Positions 8,554 through 54,782 of a stretch of DNA of 64,000 nucleotides are shown in pieces (positions within the stretch are counted from its first letter, which is position 1; each line of letters opens with the position of its first letter). Source of the DNA: Mesorhizobium australicum. Lineage in GTDB: Bacteria; Pseudomonadota; Alphaproteobacteria; Rhizobiales; Rhizobiaceae. The DNA lies in contig NZ_FXBL01000004.1 in assembly GCF_900177325.1 (NCBI RefSeq), forward strand, positions 1,922,001 to 1,986,000, in the 5' to 3' direction. The notes below the pieces were generated by a model. The model was given only the letters and a program-made list of their open reading frames with translations. It searched no databases and was not told the DNA's origin. Made by a program: the position numbers and the translations under genes.

Positions 8554-9384
8554 GTGACTAAGCCGCTTCGGCATGACGAGATACGTCTGATAATTAAGCC
8601 AGCCGATGCGCCGGCCGATTCCACGCGTCCTATTCCCGCGAGAGTCCTTCAGCGCACCTTTAGCACAGTTCTCCGATCGCTCAAAGTTGCGGACGCGGAA
8701 CTCCACGATAAGGCTCACCGAAGCGAGTTTTTTATCTCGCATCTCGCTATGGGATCAAACGAGATTGGTGTGTTTGAGCAGCCGCGGTCTGCCTCACCCA
8801 TGTCGTCGATCGACCTTTTCAGGCAGATTACGGGTTCAATCTATCGCAGTGAATTTGAACGCGCCGCTGAGAGTGAGAACGTTGCCAAAAGTGTTGTGGC
8901 GGTAGGTAAGGCGGTTGATATTGATTTCCCGGCTGTCGCTCTATTCCCGACGGACAGCATCCCTCTGGACGGTTTCTTTGCGAAACAGGCAGATCGCCTC
9001 AGGCAAACGATGACGACAAGTGGCCTCAAGAGCCTCTTTTTTGCCGGAAGTGCCATTGGGGCATTTGATGGCACGCTAGGGGAAATCGACTATCGCGGCC
9101 CAACGTGGACAGGGCATTTGGTTCTGCCTGGCGGTGGAGTCCAGATTGAATGCGTTTTCAACCGAAGCATGGGTGAGGACGCATTTAATCGGTATGGAAA
9201 CAAGCGGGTATCGATAAGCGGTCGGGCAATCTACACCGGCGACAGTCAACTGCCGGAACGTATCGAAGTGAAGACAATCGAAGAGATACCACTGGCGCGA
9301 GAAGCCATCGACATACGGGGCAGTCTTTCGGGGAAACGTTATTTCGGCGTTCGGGGAAACAGTGACGGCAAAAATCTCCAGTAG
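8554..9384 (+). CDS. uncharacterised partner of PIN-domain protein
   Basis: I place the start at GTG 8554, seven bases after AGGAGG at 8541-8546; the frame is open from TTG 8548. The 276-residue product is soluble, without signal or membrane segment. The C-terminal third (GTLGEIDYRGPTWTGHLVL, CVFNRSMGEDAFNRYGNKRV, ISGRAIYT, RIEVKTIEEIP) has the beta-rich pattern of small barrels seen in uncharacterised proteins next to PIN genes: a short ligand-facing strand set, then 'G.rV.v.G.a.y......i.v..ie'. It overlaps the PIN gene by 23 bp. I infer a long antitoxin or regulator; no named family is recognised. It rides on the IS1595 element. Confidence 0.75.
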   Translation: MTKPLRHDEIRLIIKPADAPADSTRPIPARVLQRTFSTVLRSLKVADAELHDKAHRSEFFISHLAMGSNEIGVFEQPRSASPMSSIDLFRQITGSIYRSEFERAAESENVAKSVVAVGKAVDIDFPAVALFPTDSIPLDGFFAKQADRLRQTMTTSGLKSLFFAGSAIGAFDGTLGEIDYRGPTWTGHLVLPGGGVQIECVFNRSMGEDAFNRYGNKRVSISGRAIYTGDSQLPERIEVKTIEEIPLAREAIDIRGSLSGKRYFGVRGNSDGKNLQ

Positions 9385-45483: not shown

Positions 45484-46477
45484 ATTAGGCGCAAAGACAC
45501 GGCCGATCCATCACGCACGCCATCGGGGCAACTTGCTCTGTAGTCAGAGCGGAGATCCTTGAGCCGCGCCTCGTCAGGCAAAAGCCGCAGCGAGCCTGGA
45601 CAGGCGGTGTCGTAGTCGGCCCAGCCGGACCGGAAGAAGATCGCCTTGTGCTTGGCGACCTGAGCGAGAAGCTCGAAATCGGTGGCGGCGGCTTTGCCTT
45701 CGTCGGTCTCGAAGTGCATGGCGAGATCGTAGTAGTGCCGCGAGAAATACTGCGATGTCGAGGACTCGGTCGGACGATGCGCCTCGGCATGCAATGCGGT
45801 CGCCTTCTCCCAGAAGGTGCGGCGGGCGGAGAGGACGACGACGGTGCTGTCGGGGTTCTCGAAGAAGTCGGGATAGTCATCCGCCGCATAGGGGCGGATG
45901 ACTCGTTCTTCCGTAGGCTAGGGATCTCCGCGAGCCCCGAGTTCGAGCTTCACCCGAGGCGTGATGTACCCCATGCGCTCGTATTCGGCGGCGGCGAGCG
46001 CGGTGGGGTAGTGGAAGTTCACCGTCTGCGCGTCGGCGCCGTCGATCTCCAACGACCATTCGCCGTTGGTCTGTTCGCCGAGCTGCCGGACGGTCGAAGC
46101 GCGGAGTGCGGGAAAAAGCTTCTTGGCGATGTGCAGTTCGACGTCGCGAACCAGGTCGTCGATGAGCTGCCCGACCTTTTTTCTGCTCAGGCCTTCCTTC
46201 TCGGGATCTCGGTCCCCGGTATAGCCAAGGTCGGCTCGATCGAAGGACAGGTCGATGTCCTCCGAGAAGCGGCGGATGGCATTGAAGGCCTTGGAGAGCG
46301 ATGTGCCACCTTTGAAAACGAGGGTGGGCGCGTCCTCGGGCTGTTCGAACAGGCGGCGCAGAGTCCAGCAGACCCAGAAGTCCTTTTCGATGATCGTGTC
46401 CGCACGCCCCGAGTCGCGCCGGTTTCTCCGAACAGGGCGGCACGGTCTCGAGCGGGGAGCAGGGCGACCTTATCCAT
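45484..46477 (-). pseudogene. AbiEii/AbiGii-type nucleotidyltransferase toxin, inactivated
   Basis: AbiEii toxins are GTP-dependent nucleotidyltransferases paired with AbiEi antitoxins. ATG 46475-46477 (MDKVALLPARDRAALF) overlaps the antitoxin gene by 8 bp. After a one-base loss near 46411, the reading continues as IIEKDFWVCWTLRRLFEQ, TLVFKGGTSLSKAFNAI and RRFSEDIDLSFDR, which holds the GGTSLSK and SEDIDL active-site motifs. An in-frame TAG near 45924 (in GDP*PTEERVIRPYAAD, probably from TGG) and a further slip near 45520 break the end. Confidence 0.88.
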
Positions 46478-47099
46478 CCAACTCGCCCGACACCGTGTTT
46501 GCGATGGAGACGAGCGTCGGCCGCATCCAGGCAGGCGCCTGGACGGCTGTGGATCCCAGCGTCTTCTTGTCGTTGGCCGACAGGCGACGGGCTGCGACCT
46601 GCGCCACGTCCGCAGCACGGACGGGCCCAACATGACGAAGGGCCTGTACTACGGTGCCAGCCGGACTGCCCGGAGCGATGAGGTGCTTGGGCGAAGCATG
46701 ACGAAGATCGACTACGCGCTTGCCAAGCACGACGCGCCGGGAAGGTCCGTCGGTCAGGTAGGTACTCTTCGCCGGAACCTGGGTTGAGAGGCCGAGCGCA
46801 TTGGCCGCGCGAGCGCCGGCGATCTGCACTTGCGATCCTGTCTCGCGCGCCAGCGCCTGGGCCACGTCGTCGGGCGTCGGTGAAAGCGGGCCGAGATTCG
46901 GATGAATCTTCGGGAAATCGTAAAGGCCCCGGGTCAGACGGCGGAGCTGCCCACCCTTGGCCAATCGCGAAAGCGCCTGGTCGATCGCCGACCGCCCCGC
47001 CACGTCCAAGAAGTCACTGGGCGTGAAGACGCCGCCACGCCCCCGTGCACGGGCCCGCTTCATAATCCGGTCAGGAACTGAGGTTGCTTGCGTTTTCAT
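46470..47099 (-). CDS. AbiEi-type antitoxin / DUF6088 family protein
   Basis: This 209-residue protein has an N-terminal winged-helix (RIMKRARARGRGGVFTPSDFLDVAG, IDQALSRLAKGGQLRRLTRGLYDFPK), then IAGARAANALGLSTQVPAKSTYLTDG and VVDLRHASPKHLI. It is the usual partner of AbiEii, neutralises it at the level of activity or transcription, and represses its own promoter. It is intact, while the toxin gene coupled behind it is broken. Confidence 0.88.
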   Translation of the reverse strand: MKTQATSVPDRIMKRARARGRGGVFTPSDFLDVAGRSAIDQALSRLAKGGQLRRLTRGLYDFPKIHPNLGPLSPTPDDVAQALARETGSQVQIAGARAANALGLSTQVPAKSTYLTDGPSRRVVLGKRVVDLRHASPKHLIAPGSPAGTVVQALRHVGPVRAADVAQVAARRLSANDKKTLGSTAVQAPAWMRPTLVSIANTVSGELDG

Positions 47100-47484: not shown

Positions 47485-47640
47485 TAGGTCGTCCACAAAG
47501 AGAGTGCAAAGCTGCTTGGTGACGTTCCTCGGCGTTCACCGGATGCGGCGACCGCCGACGACCTGCGCCGGTTCCAGATGGAGATCGTCGCAGCGCCGGT
47601 AACCATACGTGTCAGCCTGCGGACTGGCCCTTTAATTTCG
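47485..47640 (+). pseudogene. tyrosine recombinase N-terminal remnant
   Basis: The plus strand reads KLLGDVPRRSPDAATADDLRRFQMEIV, which matches the N-terminal core-binding part of site-specific recombinases found with IS91-like elements (FLGRSPDTATAEDLRRFQLHL-type). It has no valid start and no continuation past 47640, where the methyltransferase gene lies on the other strand. The rest of 47100-47484 holds no gene I can support. Confidence 0.4.
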
Positions 47641-48465
47641 GGGACGCGCGATAACCAGATAGCCGTAGCCGCGGTCGGCTGGCAGCGCGCTGCATGCCAG
47701 GTCGTCGATGAGCGCCAGCGCTTTCGAGTTCGTGACGACGGTCTCCGGCAACATGCTTTCGCTCGTCAGCCGCTCGACCACATAACCAGCCTCGTCAAGA
47801 TCGGCATAGATCTCGCCCCGACGGAAAAGGTGGTAGAAGAGCGGAACGGTGCCTGCGTCGGACACCCGTTCGTACTGGATGTCGCCTTCCTCGAATTCTC
47901 CGGTGTGCACACGGGGCGCGTATCGGGCCTGCTCGGCCCGGAAACGCCGCATCGCATTGGGCAGGCCGAGAACCAGGTGTCCGTGCGGCGATAGCGCGTC
48001 GCGCAATTCCAGGAGCAGCGCCAGGCGCCGAGAGCGGCCGGCCACATGGCCCAGCACACCGAAGCCGAGCAACGCCACGTTGAAACCACCATCGTCGCTG
48101 ATCTCGGCACGATAGGTCGCATCGCCTGGTTCGCATATGACAACGCGGTCGGCGAGGTTCATGTCGCGCGCTCGGTTCGCCAGCGTAAAGCGTGCGGTGG
48201 TGCTGATGTCGACGGCAACGACATGAGCCGCGTGCGATTTCGCCAGGCTCAGGCAATAGCGTCCCTCGCCGGCGCCGTAGTCGAGAAGGCGGCCTTCGAT
48301 GGGAAGAAGCTGTTCCAGCGTGCGCAGGGTTCGCCTGTTTGGCCGGGGGTAACGCGACCGGTAGAGGCCGGAGGCGAAATAAGTGTCATAGCTCTTGCCA
48401 ATGTCGACCTTTTCGCTGGCGCCCGGTTTCGCGTCCGCACGAGGCGCCGTCTTCTTCATCGCCAT
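47632..48465 (-). CDS. class I SAM-dependent methyltransferase
   Basis: This 277-residue enzyme has motif I LLDYGAGEGRYCLSLAK (about 60-76) with the acidic end of strand 2 in VVAVDIS, then GDATYRAEI and LGFGVLGHV with later-strand features. The substrate is unknown. It is last in a minus-strand trio behind the carbonic anhydrase and the permease-ATPase gene, 12 bp after the latter, so it is probably co-transcribed with them. Confidence 0.85.
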   Translation of the reverse strand: MAMKKTAPRADAKPGASEKVDIGKSYDTYFASGLYRSRYPRPNRRTLRTLEQLLPIEGRLLDYGAGEGRYCLSLAKSHAAHVVAVDISTTARFTLANRARDMNLADRVVICEPGDATYRAEISDDGGFNVALLGFGVLGHVAGRSRRLALLLELRDALSPHGHLVLGLPNAMRRFRAEQARYAPRVHTGEFEEGDIQYERVSDAGTVPLFYHLFRRGEIYADLDEAGYVVERLTSESMLPETVVTNSKALALIDDLACSALPADRGYGYLVIARPRN

Positions 48466-48477
48466 CGTTCGCCCTCT

Positions 48478-50190
48478 TCAATCCTTGAATGTCAGGCGCA
48501 GCTCGGCTCGGTTGCTCACCGTTCGCGTCCGGACGCCGTCGGCAAGGCGACCGATCAGATAGCCGGCCATGTGGCGCGGGGCATCGACATCCTCGATCAT
48601 CTCTTCCGCGCTGGGGCGGCGGTTGGAGAGTTCCGGCAGTGTCCCCTTGTAGCGAACGAAGATCGTCAGGTTGTGCTCGTTCAGCTTGGTTTCGATCTCG
48701 ATCGCCTCGCAGTCGTCGGCGAGCAAGTGGTTGTCCATCAACAGTTCGAAGGTCTGCCAGGAGGCGAGTTCGGCTCGTCTGACCGACTCGTGACGTGCCC
48801 CCCAGATGCGGCCCTGGCTTTCGATGAATTCGATCATTTCCTCGAAATGCGTCGAGGCCACCGTGAAGACCCTGCGGGTGCGGCGGCCGATGCCGATGCG
48901 GAAAATGGACTGGAGGGTGACCGCCAAAGTCAGCACAAGCGCGAACTGGGAAAAATCGATATAGCGGGCGACCGGGAGCATCTTGTCCAGGCTTTCCCGG
49001 ATGCCGTCATAGGTCAGGAAGACAAGCAGCGGTATGCCGATGGCCAGCGTGCGGCGGTTGTCCAGCATCCGCAAGCCGATCATCTGGATGCCGCCGATCG
49101 TGGCGAAAGATGAGAGAAACAGGAAAAGTGCGCCGAGCACTTCGGGAGGCAGGATCATCCACGCGACGATGATCTTGGGGCAGAGGGCGATCACGACCAG
49201 CAAGCCCGCGGTCCATACGGCGAGATGGCGGCTGGTACACCCGGACGCGAGCGCCAGGCTCGCCGCGCCGCCGCTGGCGACCATCGGCAGCGCATTGATG
49301 GCGGAGGCGAATATCTGCGCCAGCCCCTCGGCGCGCACGCCGCGGCCGATGGACTCGAAATCCGGTCGCGAGAAGTCGGCGTCGTTGAAGCGTTGCGCCG
49401 CAATCTGCACGCCCATGGAGGTCAACGATAGCGAGAAGCCGGTGACGATGGCCGGTACCAGCAAGTCCGGGTCGAACTGCCAGCCGAACTGCTGCAGGGA
49501 GGGCAGGCGAAAGAAGCTGGCGCTGTCGAATACCGCGAGATCGGAAGGCAGCACGATGCCGGCCGCAAAACTGAGAACCAGTCCGACTCCCAGCCCCGTG
49601 AGGGTGGCGAACAGGCGAAGACTGCCCTTTACCCAGACATTGCAGATGACCATCACCGCCAGCGTCGCTGCCGCGATGCCGATGCGCTGGGGGGAGGGCG
49701 CAGCCCCGTCAGCTACTGAAAAAATCAGCTTCAAGCCGATGACGCCAATGCCGGAACCGATCAGCAGCATGGCAAGGCCAGCCACCTCCACGGTGAAGAT
49801 CGCCTTCAGGCGTGGCAGGATGAAACTGAAGATGATCATCGATAGGCCGCAGATCGCAAACATGCCGAAGCCTCCGCCAAGGCCTGATGTCGTCGTGGCG
49901 AGGGCAAGGATCGGCAATACGGAGGTTGTGCTTTGGACCGGAAGAAACATTCCGGCCCCGATCCCGAAGCGACCCAGCGACTGGAGAAGCAATGCCGCTG
50001 CCGAATAGATCAGGCCGCAGGCCGCGAGATTGAGGAATTGGGCGTGATCCATGCCTGTGGTGCGGGCAAACAGGGCGGGCACGGCCATCAAGGCGCCGAG
50101 GAAGGCGGCCTGCTGCAGCGCCAGACCGAGCGCGAAGCGCGCAGGCGGCACTTCGTCTATCCAATAGAGGAGAGTGTCCGGACGGCGCAT
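48478..50190 (-). CDS. NCS2-type (xanthine/uracil) permease with C-terminal RsbW-like ATPase domain
   Basis: ATG 50190 (MRRPDTLLYWIDEVPPARFALGLALQQAAFLGAL) fits the gap to the upstream gene; the frame is open further. Residues 1 to about 440 form an NCS2/SLC23 permease: many membrane helices, TTTSGLGGGFG, TGFSLSLTSMGVQIAAQRF, the GRGVRAEGLAQIFASAINALP motif. After position 440 comes a soluble domain of about 125 residues: ASWQTFELLMDNHLLAD (N-box-like Glu and Asn), LTIFVRYKGTLPEL, APRHMAGYLIGRLADGVRTR. It resembles HATPase_c_2 anti-sigma kinases (RsbW/SpoIIAB), though degenerate in the G boxes. With STAS and RsbU-like genes next door, a signalling transporter is likely. Confidence 0.8.
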   Translation of the reverse strand: MRRPDTLLYWIDEVPPARFALGLALQQAAFLGALMAVPALFARTTGMDHAQFLNLAACGLIYSAAALLLQSLGRFGIGAGMFLPVQSTTSVLPILALATTTSGLGGGFGMFAICGLSMIIFSFILPRLKAIFTVEVAGLAMLLIGSGIGVIGLKLIFSVADGAAPSPQRIGIAAATLAVMVICNVWVKGSLRLFATLTGLGVGLVLSFAAGIVLPSDLAVFDSASFFRLPSLQQFGWQFDPDLLVPAIVTGFSLSLTSMGVQIAAQRFNDADFSRPDFESIGRGVRAEGLAQIFASAINALPMVASGGAASLALASGCTSRHLAVWTAGLLVVIALCPKIIVAWMILPPEVLGALFLFLSSFATIGGIQMIGLRMLDNRRTLAIGIPLLVFLTYDGIRESLDKMLPVARYIDFSQFALVLTLAVTLQSIFRIGIGRRTRRVFTVASTHFEEMIEFIESQGRIWGARHESVRRAELASWQTFELLMDNHLLADDCEAIEIETKLNEHNLTIFVRYKGTLPELSNRRPSAEEMIEDVDAPRHMAGYLIGRLADGVRTRTVSNRAELRLTFKD

Positions 50191-50225
50191 CGACAGTCTT
50201 CCGGGCTGGTCGGTCGGTTGGACGT

Positions 50226-50921
50226 TTAACTCACAGGAAACAGGGTGCTCTCGCCCGCCCTGGTCTGCCACAGATCTCCTGTCTCGAGGTCGAACCACCA
50301 ACCGTGCAATTGCAACGTTCCGGCATCCACGCGTTCGCGCAGCCACGGATAGGTCAGCAGGTTCTTGAGAGATCCGGCGATGGCCGCCCGCTCCACCAAG
50401 AAGGCGTTTTCCCGCAGCAGATCCAGCGAGACTTCGCGTCGCCCGCCCTGGGTCTTGGGGTCATTGACGTGCAGCCTGCAGGCATCGAGGGCGATTTCGA
50501 CCCAGTCGTTGATGAAGTCGCGCGCCATGCGCTGCCCGCCAGCGCCGTTGATCAGCGCCTTGATGCCCCCGCAATGAGCATGGCCCATCACGACGATGTG
50601 GTCGACCCCGAGGTCGCGGACCGCATATTCGATCGCCGCGCCCGTGCCATGCAGCGACGGACCCGGCTGATAAGGGGGAACCAGATTGGCAACGTTGCGC
50701 ACTGTGAACAGTTCGCCAGGTTTCGCGCCCGACAGGATCGCCGGATCGACGCGGCTGTCGGAACACGAGATCATCAGGGTTGCCGGCGCCTGGCCATCCT
50801 CGACAAGCGACTGCATGAGGCCAGGTTCACGCCCGTAATGGCTGGCCTTGAATGCCATGATGCCCGCGGTCAGGTGGCTGATGTCGCGGCAGGTGCAGCC
50901 CGGAGGTCGATCTACGCTCAC
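50226..50921 (-). CDS. beta-class carbonic anhydrase
   Basis: This 231-residue enzyme has the zinc ligands of beta carbonic anhydrases: Cys and Asp in ISCSDSRVDP (about 50-57) and His and Cys in VMGHAHCGGIKAL (about 108-120). PGELFTVRNVANLVPPY is the conserved loop. It interconverts CO2 and bicarbonate. It lies 35 bp before the permease-ATPase gene on the same strand, which raises the idea that bicarbonate or CO2 is linked to the signal. ATG in MAFKASHY downstream is an alternative start. Confidence 0.93.
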   Translation of the reverse strand: MSVDRPPGCTCRDISHLTAGIMAFKASHYGREPGLMQSLVEDGQAPATLMISCSDSRVDPAILSGAKPGELFTVRNVANLVPPYQPGPSLHGTGAAIEYAVRDLGVDHIVVMGHAHCGGIKALINGAGGQRMARDFINDWVEIALDACRLHVNDPKTQGGRREVSLDLLRENAFLVERAAIAGSLKNLLTYPWLRERVDAGTLQLHGWWFDLETGDLWQTRAGESTLFPVS

Positions 50922-51035
50922 ATTCGTCCCCTGTGCCGGTCATCGGATGAGAGGCCCGTAGACAGAACCGCCATCCTGCCGCGGAGGCAGGTTCCGCGGC
51001 TGTTGCAGCCAAGACATGGAATGTGGAGAGAAAAC

Positions 51036-51164
51036 GTGAAGATTTTGTTCAGAAGTGCAGCGGAAATCCGGCAGCACGCCGATAGAGATGGCTGCTGTTC
51101 GTCACCTCGCCTTGAAGCCGGCTCGACGCCGGTACCTGAAGAAGACTATGAGCACCGGCGTTAA
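51036..51164 (+). CDS. possible small protein (42 residues), unknown
   Basis: GTG 51036 follows GGAGAG with good spacing and gives KILFRSAAEIRQHADRDGCC, then a short acidic tail (VPEEDYEHRR) to a stop at 51162-51164. It has no signal peptide or known family. It lies between the carbonic anhydrase and STAS genes. A chance frame is quite possible. Confidence 0.25.
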   Translation: MKILFRSAAEIRQHADRDGCCSSPRLEAGSTPVPEEDYEHRR

Positions 51165-51291
51165 TTTTCCGCATCGTCGGCGAGCTCCGAGGGGGCTGCC
51201 ATGGCCGGCGATTGCCCACCCTCGTCTGCGGATCGACGTTTTGTCGTCCTAACGGAACACTTCGCTTCCAGTTTGAGTGGGATATTTACCA

Positions 51292-51328
51292 TTCAGAGAC
51301 ACTTTGTCTTTCAGAGACAATTGTCCTT
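51292..51328. promoter_or_regulatory. paired direct repeats upstream of the STAS gene
   Basis: The decamer TTCAGAGACA occurs at 51292-51301 and again at 51310-51319, 18 bp apart, and each is part of an inverted repeat (AGACA..TGTCT in the first; GACAATTGTC, perfect, in the second). They lie about 40-65 bp before the STAS start and could be a two-site operator or an extended promoter. No factor can be named. Confidence 0.45.
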
Positions 51329-51357
51329 TCCGAGGTTCAACAGGAAGCAGGTTCGTC

Positions 51358-51684
51358 ATGGGCATCACGTTTGAAAGGGTGGGCAATGCGACCGTCGCCA
51401 GCTTGCAGGGGCGGCTCGACAGCAGCAACTCCTCCACCGTCGAGACTGAACTCTTCAATCAGCTGGGCGATGGCGGCTTCGTTCTGGATGTGAGCAAGCT
51501 CGATTACATTTCAAGCGCGGGTTTGCGGGTCGTTCTCGTCGTGGCCAAGCGCCTGAAACAGTCGGGCAGCGCCTTCCTTCTAGCTGGCATGCAGCCGCAT
51601 ATCCGGGATGTGTTCGAGATTTCCGGCTTTCTCAGCCTTCTCGCCGTGGCGGAAAATCGCGACGAGGCACTGACGCGCGTCTGA
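51358..51684 (+). CDS. STAS-domain anti-anti-sigma factor-like protein
   Basis: This 108-residue STAS protein (SpoIIAA/RsbV type) starts at ATG 51358. The sequence ITFERVGNATVASLQGRLDS is followed by the phosphorylation loop LDVSKLDYISSAGLRVVL with a candidate Ser at about 56-57, then FLLAGMQPHIRDVFEISGF. In known circuits an RsbW-type kinase phosphorylates this Ser and a PP2C phosphatase reverses it. It ends base-to-base with the RsbU-like gene, which runs on the opposite strand. Confidence 0.92.
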   Translation: MGITFERVGNATVASLQGRLDSSNSSTVETELFNQLGDGGFVLDVSKLDYISSAGLRVVLVVAKRLKQSGSAFLLAGMQPHIRDVFEISGFLSLLAVAENRDEALTRV

Positions 51685-53598
51685 TCAGGACTGGTTGCTG
51701 CGCGGACCATTGTAGCGGATGACAAGGCAAGTAATGTCGTCCGACTGTTCGGCCGCGCCAACGAAATTACCGACGGCGTTCGTGACATCGGCAAGCACGA
51801 GTTCGACGGTCAGCCTATGCGCGTCGGTCAGTGCGCTCCGCAGACGCGCTTCGGTGAATTCCCTCCCGTCGCCGTCCATCGCCTCCGATATGCCGTCGGT
51901 ATAGAGAAATAGCGTGTCACCCTCCTTCAGCATCACGCTCTTTTCCGCATAATCAAGTCCAGGCGCCACCCCCAGCGCCACGCCTCCGGTGCGCGGCAGG
52001 TCCTGTACGCTGCCGTCCAGGCGGCGGATGACCATGGGTGGGTTGTGCCCGCCATTGGCATAGGTCAGCGTGCCGGTTTCCGTGTCGAGAATGCCGTAGA
52101 AGGTGGTTACGAACAGGTCCATCGGGTTCTGACCGCACAGCATCGTGTTCGCCGCCGCGAGGCAGGTGCCGGCCGAGCGGTTCTCGCGCGCGCTGGATTG
52201 CAGCACGGTACGGGAGATCGCCATGAAAAACGCCGCCGGCACACCCTTGCCCGAAACATCGGCGATCACGATACCCAGATGGCGGTCGTCGATGGCGAAG
52301 AAATCGTAGAAGTCGCCGCCAAGCTCGCGTGCGGGAATCATCGTCGCGTTGCCCGCATAGGAAGGGTGCGCGGGCAGCCCTTGCGGCAGGATTGCGGCCT
52401 GAAGCGAGCGTGCCGCATCGAGTTCCGCCTCGACCCGGCGTTTGGATTCCTCCAGCAGTCTGTTCTTCTGCTCCAATTCCGTTGTGCGCGCGCGGACCTG
52501 GGCCTCGAGATGTTCCTCACGAGCCTGCACCTCGATGGCCATATGCTGGAATACGCGGGCGAGCGTACCCAGTTCATCGGCCCGTCGGGCGAGCGGATTC
52601 AGGCTTTCCGGGCGAAAGACGCGACTGTCGACTTGATTTGCGGCCGCGGTCATTGCGGAGACCGGGCGGGCGATGCGGCCGGCGAACAGTCCGGCGACGC
52701 CGACGCCGACCGCAAGTACGAGACCTGCGGCAAGCATGCCGTAATAGAGATAGTCGAGCAGCATGTCCTCCAGCCGCTGCGTCGACATCGACAGAACGGT
52801 TGCACCAATGGTGATGCCGGCCGTATCGCGGATAGGCGCGGCCACGAGAAGACGCGCTTGCCCGAAGTCGAAGTCGGCGGCGGTGCCTTCGATCGCCCTC
52901 GCCGCGAGCCTGCCGGCTGTCTCCGGCATGTCGTCGCCCACCGAAGCCATCGATACCTGGGCGTCGTCGAAAACCTGTATCGCCCTCATCCCGTCCCGAT
53001 TGATCAGCGCAGCCAGGAGCACCGGCAGGCTGTTGGCCGCGCGTACCGGATCGAGAACGGCATCTGGTTGGCCGGCAATCAGCGCCCGTCCGCCGTCGAC
53101 ACGCACGCCGACATAGCGGACGCCGTCGATCGCCCCACCGAGCGGCAGGCGGAAGCGGCGACCGCTCGTCAAGGCATCCAGTGCTGCGCGAGGCAGGCCG
53201 TCTGGAAGGCTCTCGCCGCTGACCACCGCTCCATAGTCGCCAACGGAACTTGCCAGCACCGCGAGGTCCTTGTCGACCAGCCAAAGGGAGGAGATATTGC
53301 CGCGTGCAGCGACTTCCGCGAGCAGATTGCCGAAGTCCGGACTGGCCTGCGCCGGCATGCTGGCAATGGCGAAAGCCAATGTGGACAGATCGTCGACAAG
53401 GACCGACTGCATCTCCTCCAGCGATATTTCGGTGAGGCGGGCGCTTTCGGCGACAATGCGGGCGACGGCTTGCGCCTGCGCCTCGGCCTGCTCGATGAGC
53501 GCGTGTCGTCCGAGCCAGCCGAACACGATGCTGATGGTGATGATCGCCAGCGTGATGCAGGCGGCGACCATGAGGATGAGGCGCCGGGTCAGGGTCAC
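51685..53598 (-). CDS. RsbU/SpoIIE-type PP2C phosphatase with periplasmic sensor and HAMP domain
   Basis: I choose GTG 53598 (VTLTRRLILMVAACITLAI), which overlaps the small upstream gene by 4 bp (GTGA); the frame is open to 53835. The 637-residue protein has a membrane segment at about 5-27, a periplasmic sensor of about 250 residues, a second membrane segment at about 284-306, HAMP (IARPVSAMTAAANQV), a coiled-coil (AREEHLEAQVRARTTELEQKNRLLEES) and a PP2C SpoIIE domain (GGDFYDFFAID, VIADVSGKGVPAAFFMA, YANGGHNPP, TDGISEAM, QSDDITCLVI). It should dephosphorylate the STAS protein on an external cue. Confidence 0.92.
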   Translation of the reverse strand: MTLTRRLILMVAACITLAIITISIVFGWLGRHALIEQAEAQAQAVARIVAESARLTEISLEEMQSVLVDDLSTLAFAIASMPAQASPDFGNLLAEVAARGNISSLWLVDKDLAVLASSVGDYGAVVSGESLPDGLPRAALDALTSGRRFRLPLGGAIDGVRYVGVRVDGGRALIAGQPDAVLDPVRAANSLPVLLAALINRDGMRAIQVFDDAQVSMASVGDDMPETAGRLAARAIEGTAADFDFGQARLLVAAPIRDTAGITIGATVLSMSTQRLEDMLLDYLYYGMLAAGLVLAVGVGVAGLFAGRIARPVSAMTAAANQVDSRVFRPESLNPLARRADELGTLARVFQHMAIEVQAREEHLEAQVRARTTELEQKNRLLEESKRRVEAELDAARSLQAAILPQGLPAHPSYAGNATMIPARELGGDFYDFFAIDDRHLGIVIADVSGKGVPAAFFMAISRTVLQSSARENRSAGTCLAAANTMLCGQNPMDLFVTTFYGILDTETGTLTYANGGHNPPMVIRRLDGSVQDLPRTGGVALGVAPGLDYAEKSVMLKEGDTLFLYTDGISEAMDGDGREFTEARLRSALTDAHRLTVELVLADVTNAVGNFVGAAEQSDDITCLVIRYNGPRSNQS

Positions 53599-53807
53599 GC
53601 CGCGCCTCCGTCGGCGGGCACTTTGATCTCTTCCCGTTTTATGGCGATCGTCCCCAATGTCGCGGCGAGATCGAGCTTGCGTTCGAGCGGAGGGGCGCCA
53701 GCCATGAGGCGTCGCTCCCCTGGGTGAGGAGATATCCCCTTGATCTTGAACGAGACCGGATAGGGCTTTTGCAAAGCCAGAAACATTTTGTGGGTAACAC
53801 GATTCAT
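53595..53807 (-). CDS. small coupled protein upstream of the RsbU-like gene, unknown
   Basis: This 70-residue frame (MNRVTHKMFLALQKPYPVSF, ending KREEIKVPADGGAA) stops in a GTGA overlap with the proposed RsbU start, a sign of translational coupling. No signal peptide or membrane segment is clear. It starts 40 bp from the divergent open frame of the binding-protein gene. No family is recognised; it may be a regulator of the phosphatase. Confidence 0.5.
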   Translation of the reverse strand: MNRVTHKMFLALQKPYPVSFKIKGISPHPGERRLMAGAPPLERKLDLAATLGTIAIKREEIKVPADGGAA

Positions 53808-53906
53808 GCGTTTCGACGCATCCTCTCAGCAGCATCGACGTAATTTATGAACGAGTGTGTCCCAAACTGGAGAGAATTTGCAGCCGGGGTGTTGAGAGGT
53901 CCACAT

Positions 53907-54782
53907 ATGGCGAGATTTGCATTGGTTGCGATTGCCTGGACGTTGATGTGGCCCGCCCAGACGGAGGCGGTTCATGCTGGCACACTGTCGCAAATTGCCG
54001 AAAGTGGCGTCCTTCGGGCGGGTACAAGAGCGGATGCCGTGCCGTTTGCCTATCTGGCCGAAGACGGCAAGCCGGAAGGCTTTTCCGTCGACCTGATAGA
54101 GGAAATCCGCGCCGCGGTGGAGGCGCGTCTCGGGCGGCCGGTGCGGACGGAACTGAACCGGGTAACGCCGGCGAATCGTGTGCAGATGGTCGCATCCGGC
54201 GCGCTCGATATCGTTTGCGAGATCACGACGCCGACTTGGGATCGTGAGAAGCTCGTGGACTTCTCGGTTCCCTTCTTCAGGGATGGCACCCGTATTCTCG
54301 CATTCCGCGATACGCTGAAGACCACACCGGAAATAAAGGACATGACGATCGGCGTGGCTGAGGGCACGACGACAGGCGATATCCTGACAGAAGCATTGCC
54401 GGGGATAGTGACGCGCTCCTACCCGTCGATGGACGAGGCATTCGCGGCGCTCAGAAGCGGCGAGGTCCAAGGTGTCGCCAATATCGGCATCATCCTGCTC
54501 GGCCTGTCGCGAAAGCTGGAGCCGGACCGCAGCGTCGTTCTGCTGCCGCGCACCGAGCCCCTGGGCAACGAGACGATGGCCTGCATGCTGCCGCAAAACG
54601 ACAGCGAATGGCGGGATTTCGTCAATGCCACCATCATCGGGCTGACGCGTGACCTTGCCGACTATCGCGGCCACTACATGCAGATTTATGACAAGTGGTT
54701 CGGGCGCGAGGGTCGACTGGTCTATCCGCTGGACCGTTCCACCCGCGACTATCTGCTGAATGCAAACGTCTGGGCGCGCTAG
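53907..54782 (+). CDS. periplasmic amino-acid-type solute-binding protein (orphan)
   Basis: ATG 53907 gives a signal peptide (ARFALVAIAWTLMWPAQTEAVHA). The PBP2 (SBP_bac_3) fold follows: LSQIAESGVLRAGTRADAVPFAYL, GKPEGFSVDLIEEIRAAV, NRVQMVASGALDIVCEITTPTWDREKLVDFS, MTIGVAEGTTTGDIL. No permease or ATPase gene of an ABC system lies nearby. It is divergent to the RsbU-like operon, so it may present a ligand to the periplasmic sensor of the phosphatase. The frame is open from 53847. Confidence 0.85.
   Translation: MARFALVAIAWTLMWPAQTEAVHAGTLSQIAESGVLRAGTRADAVPFAYLAEDGKPEGFSVDLIEEIRAAVEARLGRPVRTELNRVTPANRVQMVASGALDIVCEITTPTWDREKLVDFSVPFFRDGTRILAFRDTLKTTPEIKDMTIGVAEGTTTGDILTEALPGIVTRSYPSMDEAFAALRSGEVQGVANIGIILLGLSRKLEPDRSVVLLPRTEPLGNETMACMLPQNDSEWRDFVNATIIGLTRDLADYRGHYMQIYDKWFGREGRLVYPLDRSTRDYLLNANVWAR

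Follow-up and report, generated by a model that had tools for sequence, protein, structure and literature searches.

A candidate partner-switching module in Mesorhizobium australicum with a membrane transporter as its proposed output

The best-known role of partner switches is the release of sigma factors. The Bacillus systems RsbU/RsbV/RsbW and SpoIIE/SpoIIAA/SpoIIAB have three component families in common with the locus described here, the HATPase_c_2 kinase being found in the clusters of relatives. They differ in that the RsbW fold occurs twice in the present case, in one copy as an intact kinase and in the other as a dead domain fused to a transporter, and no sigma factor was found among the selected neighbours scanned with Pfam. 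The SiaABCD system of Pseudomonas aeruginosa consists of the PP2C phosphatase SiaA, the kinase SiaB, the STAS-like protein SiaC and the diguanylate cyclase SiaD, and SiaC interacts with both SiaB and SiaD according to sections of a published account (PMC7647112). Its effector is a cyclase, whereas the proposed effector here is a permease bearing its own RsbW-like domain; Pfam reported no cyclase domain in the six proteins encoded at 47.6-54.8 kb. The icfG cluster of Synechocystis (IcfG PP2C, the kinase Slr1861 and Slr1856/Slr1859) resembles the locus in that a carbonic anhydrase gene lies in the cluster that we analysed. Sections of one paper (PMC12329169) tie the icfG partner-switch genes to inorganic-carbon physiology and describe Slr1861 as an anti-SigC factor, and a permease with an RsbW-like domain does not figure in those sections.

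Two further groups of proteins are relevant. According to section 6 of a 2021 review (PMC8256260), which counts the targets of several non-canonical STAS proteins as unknown, the STAS proteins RbaV (Rhodobacter) and SypA (Vibrio fischeri) act in their unphosphorylated form on a target that has yet to be identified. That section names no transporter as a target of RbaV or SypA, whereas a candidate target domain can be pointed to here. The SLC26/SulP anion transporters (BicA and others) share the 7+7 transmembrane carrier fold and a cytoplasmic C-terminal domain drawn from the STAS/anti-sigma pair, but they bear the STAS half, whereas the SLC23 carrier described here bears the RsbW half. This arrangement did not emerge from searches of the open-licence literature, a scope outside which most subscription papers fall. 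The parts are of known kinds, and what appears to be new is partner switching with a transporter as the proposed output, by way of a pseudo-kinase docking domain.

The DNA analysed, referred to as the window, is a stretch of 64 kb of the M. australicum genome. The following features of the window are relevant here.

47632-48465, minus strand: SAM-dependent methyltransferase, 12 bp downstream of the NCS2 permease and on the same strand
48478-50190, minus strand: NCS2 permease with an extra C-terminus
48901..50190, minus strand: NCS2/SLC23-fold part of the permease, residues 1-430 (Pfam and AF2 model)
48481..48900, minus strand: C-terminal domain (CTD) of the permease, residues 431-570, catalytically dead RsbW/SpoIIAB fold and proposed STAS-docking module
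50226-50921, minus strand: beta-carbonic anhydrase (PF00484, E 7e-45), 35 bp upstream of the permease start and on the same strand
51358-51684, plus strand: STAS-domain-only protein of SpoIIAA/RsbV type (Pfam E 6e-17, motif YISSAGLR)
51685-53598, minus strand: HAMP-SpoIIE membrane phosphatase, PP2C-type (PF07228, E 1.5e-48)
53847-54782, plus strand: periplasmic family-3 solute-binding protein (PF00497, E 1e-23), divergent from the phosphatase

The STAS protein, SpoIIE phosphatase, NCS2 permease, beta-carbonic anhydrase and methyltransferase were all found where the initial annotation had placed them. Carbonic anhydrase, permease and methyltransferase genes follow one another tightly on the minus strand (gaps of 35 and 12 bp), and the stop codons of the STAS and phosphatase genes abut (51684 plus, 51685 minus). 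The STAS protein scores above the TIGR00377 cut-off, and the second Ser of its YISSAGLR motif is invariant in all nine STAS proteins aligned. The phosphatase, the sole SpoIIE match in the whole genome, has an N-terminal hydrophobic stretch, a region without family assignment, a second hydrophobic stretch, HAMP and SpoIIE, an arrangement assigned by visual inspection of the sequence; the region between the hydrophobic stretches is presumed to be periplasmic. Its start is likely the GTG at 53598, and a longer ATG frame reaches 53835. The methyltransferase gene adjoins the NCS2-CTD gene in 12 fetched loci (window, L022-L025, L028, L029 and L107-L111), and the solute-binding protein gene neighbours the phosphatase gene in 11 fetched CTD loci (window, L022, L023, L025, L028, L029 and L107-L111); the encoded protein is a possible ligand donor for the phosphatase sensor.

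The interval 53599-53846 of the window lacks three genes that separate phosphatase and solute-binding protein in relatives (L029, 4121-6837; L022, 2896-5650): a fusion of solute-binding protein and ABC permease, a further ABC permease, and the kinase. The solute-binding protein gene of the window has been left on its own. On the other side of the cluster, an AbiEi-type antitoxin-like gene lies at 46470-47099 on the minus strand (DUF6088 E 1e-36, AbiEi_4 E 3e-8). Downstream of it, at 45.5-46.4 kb, several frames overlap, and that at 45877-46443 has no Pfam match.

We examined the fold of the permease CTD by profile comparison and modelling. Pfam did not report HATPase in the window CTD at E up to 1, and at the same threshold HATPase_c_2 (PF13581) matched 8 of 27 members of the CTD family, with a best E of 6.5e-4. 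When the CTD profile was aligned by hhalign with six free kinases, taken from related genomes and from this one, the comparison gave 92% over 123 columns; the corresponding values were no more than 0.7% for 100 column shuffles, 0.1% for the reversed profile and 0.3% for a STAS profile. Among the 12 loci with all three switch genes, 7 had a free kinase that the CTD profile itself found when run on the frames in the fetched loci (E 3e-3 to 3e-6). Furthermore, the AlphaFold (AF2) model of the CTD (pLDDT 91.5, pTM 0.85) had anti-sigma kinases as its top PDB matches (Foldseek, VIA). Profiles and model together support a predicted RsbW/SpoIIAB fold for the fused domain. The RsbW-like domain that the initial annotation had seen at the end of the permease is therefore real, and the HATPase fold on which its circuit depended is present.

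The same annotation had described the ATPase domain as degenerate, which agrees with the loss of key ATP-binding residues in all 27 CTDs. We used motif names (N-box, DxG, loop Gly, LxD) with the roles that we take them to have in SpoIIAB. In a joint alignment, the N-box Asn, the DxG Asp and the third loop Gly were each present in 6/6 free kinases and in 0/27 CTDs, where Y, W, H or F stands in place of the DxG Asp; since this is a sequence alignment at low identity, the motif columns may be off by one residue. The first and second loop Gly are kept in 4/27 and 2/27 CTDs and the N-box Glu in 3/27, and the DxG Gly and the LxD Asp are retained in 25/27 and 24/27, respectively. With the N-box Asn, DxG Asp and third Gly gone throughout, we did not file the CTD as an anti-sigma serine kinase.

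A domain that has kept its fold and lost ATP binding would be suited to serve as a docking receptor. With such a dead RsbW fold on a transporter amid switch genes, the switch probably controls the transporter directly and not gene expression. We therefore consider it rather likely, though well short of certain, that the locus belongs to a partner-switching module whose output is the membrane transporter, with the STAS protein docking on the dead RsbW-like domain of the permease. In such a module, the SpoIIE phosphatase would sense a periplasmic signal and dephosphorylate the STAS protein, and a stand-alone RsbW-type kinase would rephosphorylate it on the conserved serine. The unphosphorylated STAS protein would then bind either the kinase or the permease CTD, and its presence on the CTD would open, close or stabilize the carrier. 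Since part of the phosphatase seems to lie in the periplasm and its gene has a solute-binding protein gene as neighbour, the signal probably comes from that compartment. By analogy with SiaC, which interacts with SiaB and SiaD, alternation of the STAS protein between soluble kinase and CTD is the most economical reading. Gating of the permease by STAS binding without catalysis had been given as an alternative in the initial annotation, and the sequence evidence now favours it.

Next, we asked how often CTD-bearing permeases lie beside switch genes. Profiles for STAS, kinase and SpoIIE, whose seeds came in part from these loci, were applied at E 1e-4; the fetched CTD stretches measured 9.0-21.7 kb (median 18.0), apart from the window with its 64 kb, and some end at contig ends (e.g. 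L073). Within these stretches, STAS was present in 16 of 43 NCS2-CTD loci, representing 9 of 24 genera. Kinase and SpoIIE accompanied it in 12 of the 16; the window and L028 had STAS and SpoIIE only, and L024 and L117 had STAS alone. The remaining 27 loci had neither STAS, kinase nor SpoIIE in the stretch read. For comparison, we used CTD-less NCS2 genes of relatives, unmatched in genome size, in 18.0 kb each from 19 of 20 matched CTD-less genomes (G007, at a contig start, was left out), and none of the 19 had STAS, kinase or SpoIIE. The difference between CTD and CTD-less loci gave Fisher p values of 0.001 by locus and 0.006 by genus, with loci that are not phylogenetically independent. Several loci stand outside the 43: L124 (no CTD match), L063 (the same stretch as L024), the CTD matches G698:C23 and G1104:C16, the second G1080 match, which is the kinase in L109, and L141 and L142, because they were found through the kinase.

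The module was found in several genera of Alpha- and Betaproteobacteria and in several gene orders. The alphaproteobacterial cluster runs solute-binding protein, ABC, kinase, SpoIIE, STAS, NCS2 and methyltransferase; L068 has SpoIIE-kinase-STAS-NCS2 on a single strand, L106 has NCS2-STAS-kinase, and in L114 kinase-STAS-SpoIIE faces NCS2. In L141 and L142 (Verticiella and Pusillimonas), STAS is divergent from NCS2-CTD-kinase. A maximum-likelihood tree of the permeases (46 CTD-bearing and 4 CTD-less rows) separated the CTD-bearing ones from the rest by a branch with full support, and on this tree 'switch nearby' as a label has to change at least five times; the trees leave out L073 and CTD matches above E 1e-8. 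In a class sample, SpoIIE was found somewhere in the genome for 11 of 12 CTD-bearing genomes, the exception being G324. The link with STAS and SpoIIE that had been proposed from the window alone thus recurs across genera and gene orders, but most of the CTD loci lack switch neighbours in the stretch read, and the local circuit is therefore not universal.

Two assignments were discarded along the way. The other NCS2-CTD genes of Verticiella and Pusillimonas (L026 and L027) appeared orphaned, which had suggested that betaproteobacteria have no switch; the same genomes hold separate STAS/NCS2-CTD/kinase clusters. A SpoIIE beside NCS2 in L064, matched by a profile of the full-length phosphatase, was also rejected, as Pfam showed HAMP alone and a phosphatase-domain query gave no match. 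The dead RsbW-like domain with switch genes absent from the stretch was observed in L064-L067, L069-L072, L074-L078, L112, L113, L115, L116, L118-L123 and L125. In Zavarzinia (clusters L024 and L025), two NCS2-CTD permeases from different clades, about 26% identical, lie together in a locus that also has genes for STAS, carbonic anhydrase and methyltransferase, which suggests two carriers under one switch.

These counts bear on a reading without contact between the proteins, in which the CTD serves a divergent clade of NCS2 carriers for structure or dimerization and the switch genes adjoin for other reasons, such as a shared regulon. RsbW-type proteins form dimers. SLC23 carriers are dimers as well, according to sections of one paper (PMC6497670), and the 27 of 43 CTD loci without switch genes nearby also speak for this reading. 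However, the permease has gained exactly the fold that binds STAS, recurrently beside STAS genes in several orders, and CTD-less NCS2 genes lay beside STAS in 0 of 19 cases. We regard a purely structural role as unlikely, although it keeps more weight than the other alternatives.

The preferred reading, STAS docking on the permease, calls for a separate kinase, and no stand-alone kinase was found in the window's own cluster. A search of the whole genome revealed an RsbW-type kinase, P0035 (G000:C4:4401.9-4402.4 kb; PF13581 E 2.6e-20), about 2.4 Mb from the cluster and with intact motifs. The best HATPase_c_2 match in the genome had 73 bits in a 163-residue frame, the size of a kinase. The remaining 19 matches had at most 31.4 bits, some above the Pfam cut-off of 27.4 bits, in frames of 358-914 residues, and are taken for histidine kinases by frame length. 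In relatives, an RsbW-type kinase gene directly precedes the SpoIIE gene, as seen in Aquamicrobium (L022 and L023), Zavarzinia sp. (L025), Oryzicola (L029) and likewise five genomes of one genus (L107-L111), and the motifs were intact in the five cluster kinases checked (L022, L023, L025, L029 and L068). Of the kinase picture in the initial annotation, the RsbW-like fold on the transporter stood, but the true kinase, elsewhere in the genome, had been missed.

Beside the P0035 kinase lies a second STAS gene, which is whole in the window genome, and with it a DUF308/HdeD-like gene. In the sister genome G005, the kinase is whole and 81% identical to that of the window genome, and tblastn found only 31 residues of the second STAS beside it (L140, G005:C1:1052000-1070000, 8789-8881); the cluster STAS would there be a natural client of the kinase. 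In Oryzicola, an HdeD-like gene follows the cluster methyltransferase. The presence of such a gene beside the kinase here and beside the cluster in Oryzicola hints that the two loci were once one. The membrane protein in question (L043:8816-10288 and L029:11894-13234) has a weak DUF308 (HdeD-like) match in L029 and a long part without family; it adjoins the kinase/STAS pair in one genome and the NCS2-methyltransferase cluster in another.

A membrane sink would have an anatomy identical to that of the docking module. Here the state of the transporter would sequester STAS and thereby shift the action of the free kinase on another target, such as a sigma factor or a different effector, so that the transporter would be the sensor and not the output; the true output could be the second STAS next to the kinase. 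The sister genome argues against this, as it has kept kinase, phosphatase, permease and cluster STAS although its second STAS is truncated, and the Pfam scan of selected neighbours showed no sigma factor; we hold such a sink to be distinctly improbable. Least probable is the initial proposal that the transporter carries the circuit's own active or conditionally active STAS kinase, with substrate flux setting STAS phosphorylation: the RsbW/SpoIIAB fold, the lack of another kinase in the window's cluster and the retained LxD Asp and DxG Gly speak for it, but the ATP residues lost from 27/27 CTDs, on which we rejected the CTD as an active kinase, and the separate kinases in sister clusters and in this genome make it very unlikely.

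We then considered what the permease under the proposed STAS control might carry. It matches Pfam PF00860 (Xan_ur_permease) over residues 23-389 with E 3e-28 and 99 bits (cut-off 27) and is the sole such match in the genome. The solved structures nearest to its full-length AF2 model (pLDDT 80.9) were UraA, UapA and SVCT1, with SLC26 and BicA among the lower-ranked Foldseek matches. Residues were compared with the UraA sequence of E. coli K-12, in which we take H24, E241, H245, E290 and N291 to bind nucleobase or couple protons. All eight sequences of the window's clade, NCS2a, have Q for H24, T, L or G for E241, V or T for H245, G for E290 and A for N291. The 11 sequences of the NCS2b clade keep H24 and N291 and have D for E241 and A for E290; Arg stands at E241 in 15 of the 28 CTD-bearing sequences outside both clades. 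With the UraA-site residues replaced, the carrier is probably not a proton-coupled nucleobase symporter of known type, and we rejected the plain label of xanthine/uracil permease.

Of the 8 NCS2a loci, 7 have a carbonic anhydrase gene (window, L028, L022-L025 and L027; absent from L026), and it was found in none of the nine NCS2b-only loci (L029, L107-L111, L117, L141 and L142). SulP-type bicarbonate carriers are a named class, and SulP carriers fused to carbonic anhydrase occur. Site loss, carbonic anhydrase company and the SulP precedent make inorganic carbon or another anion a plausible substrate of NCS2a. It is accordingly possible, if tentative, that in the window's clade a dead copy of an anti-sigma kinase serves as the docking module through which the switch would gate the flux of inorganic carbon (bicarbonate) or another anion post-translationally.

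The locus joins an SLC23-fold carrier to a C-terminal domain predicted to belong to the interaction pair that also supplies the STAS domain of SLC26 and, if the proposed docking is true, these permeases would be the mirror image of the SLC26-STAS transporters. A transporter with a dead RsbW domain would be a specific type of target, and thus a candidate kind for non-canonical STAS proteins, and it would extend partner switching to the direct control of transport.
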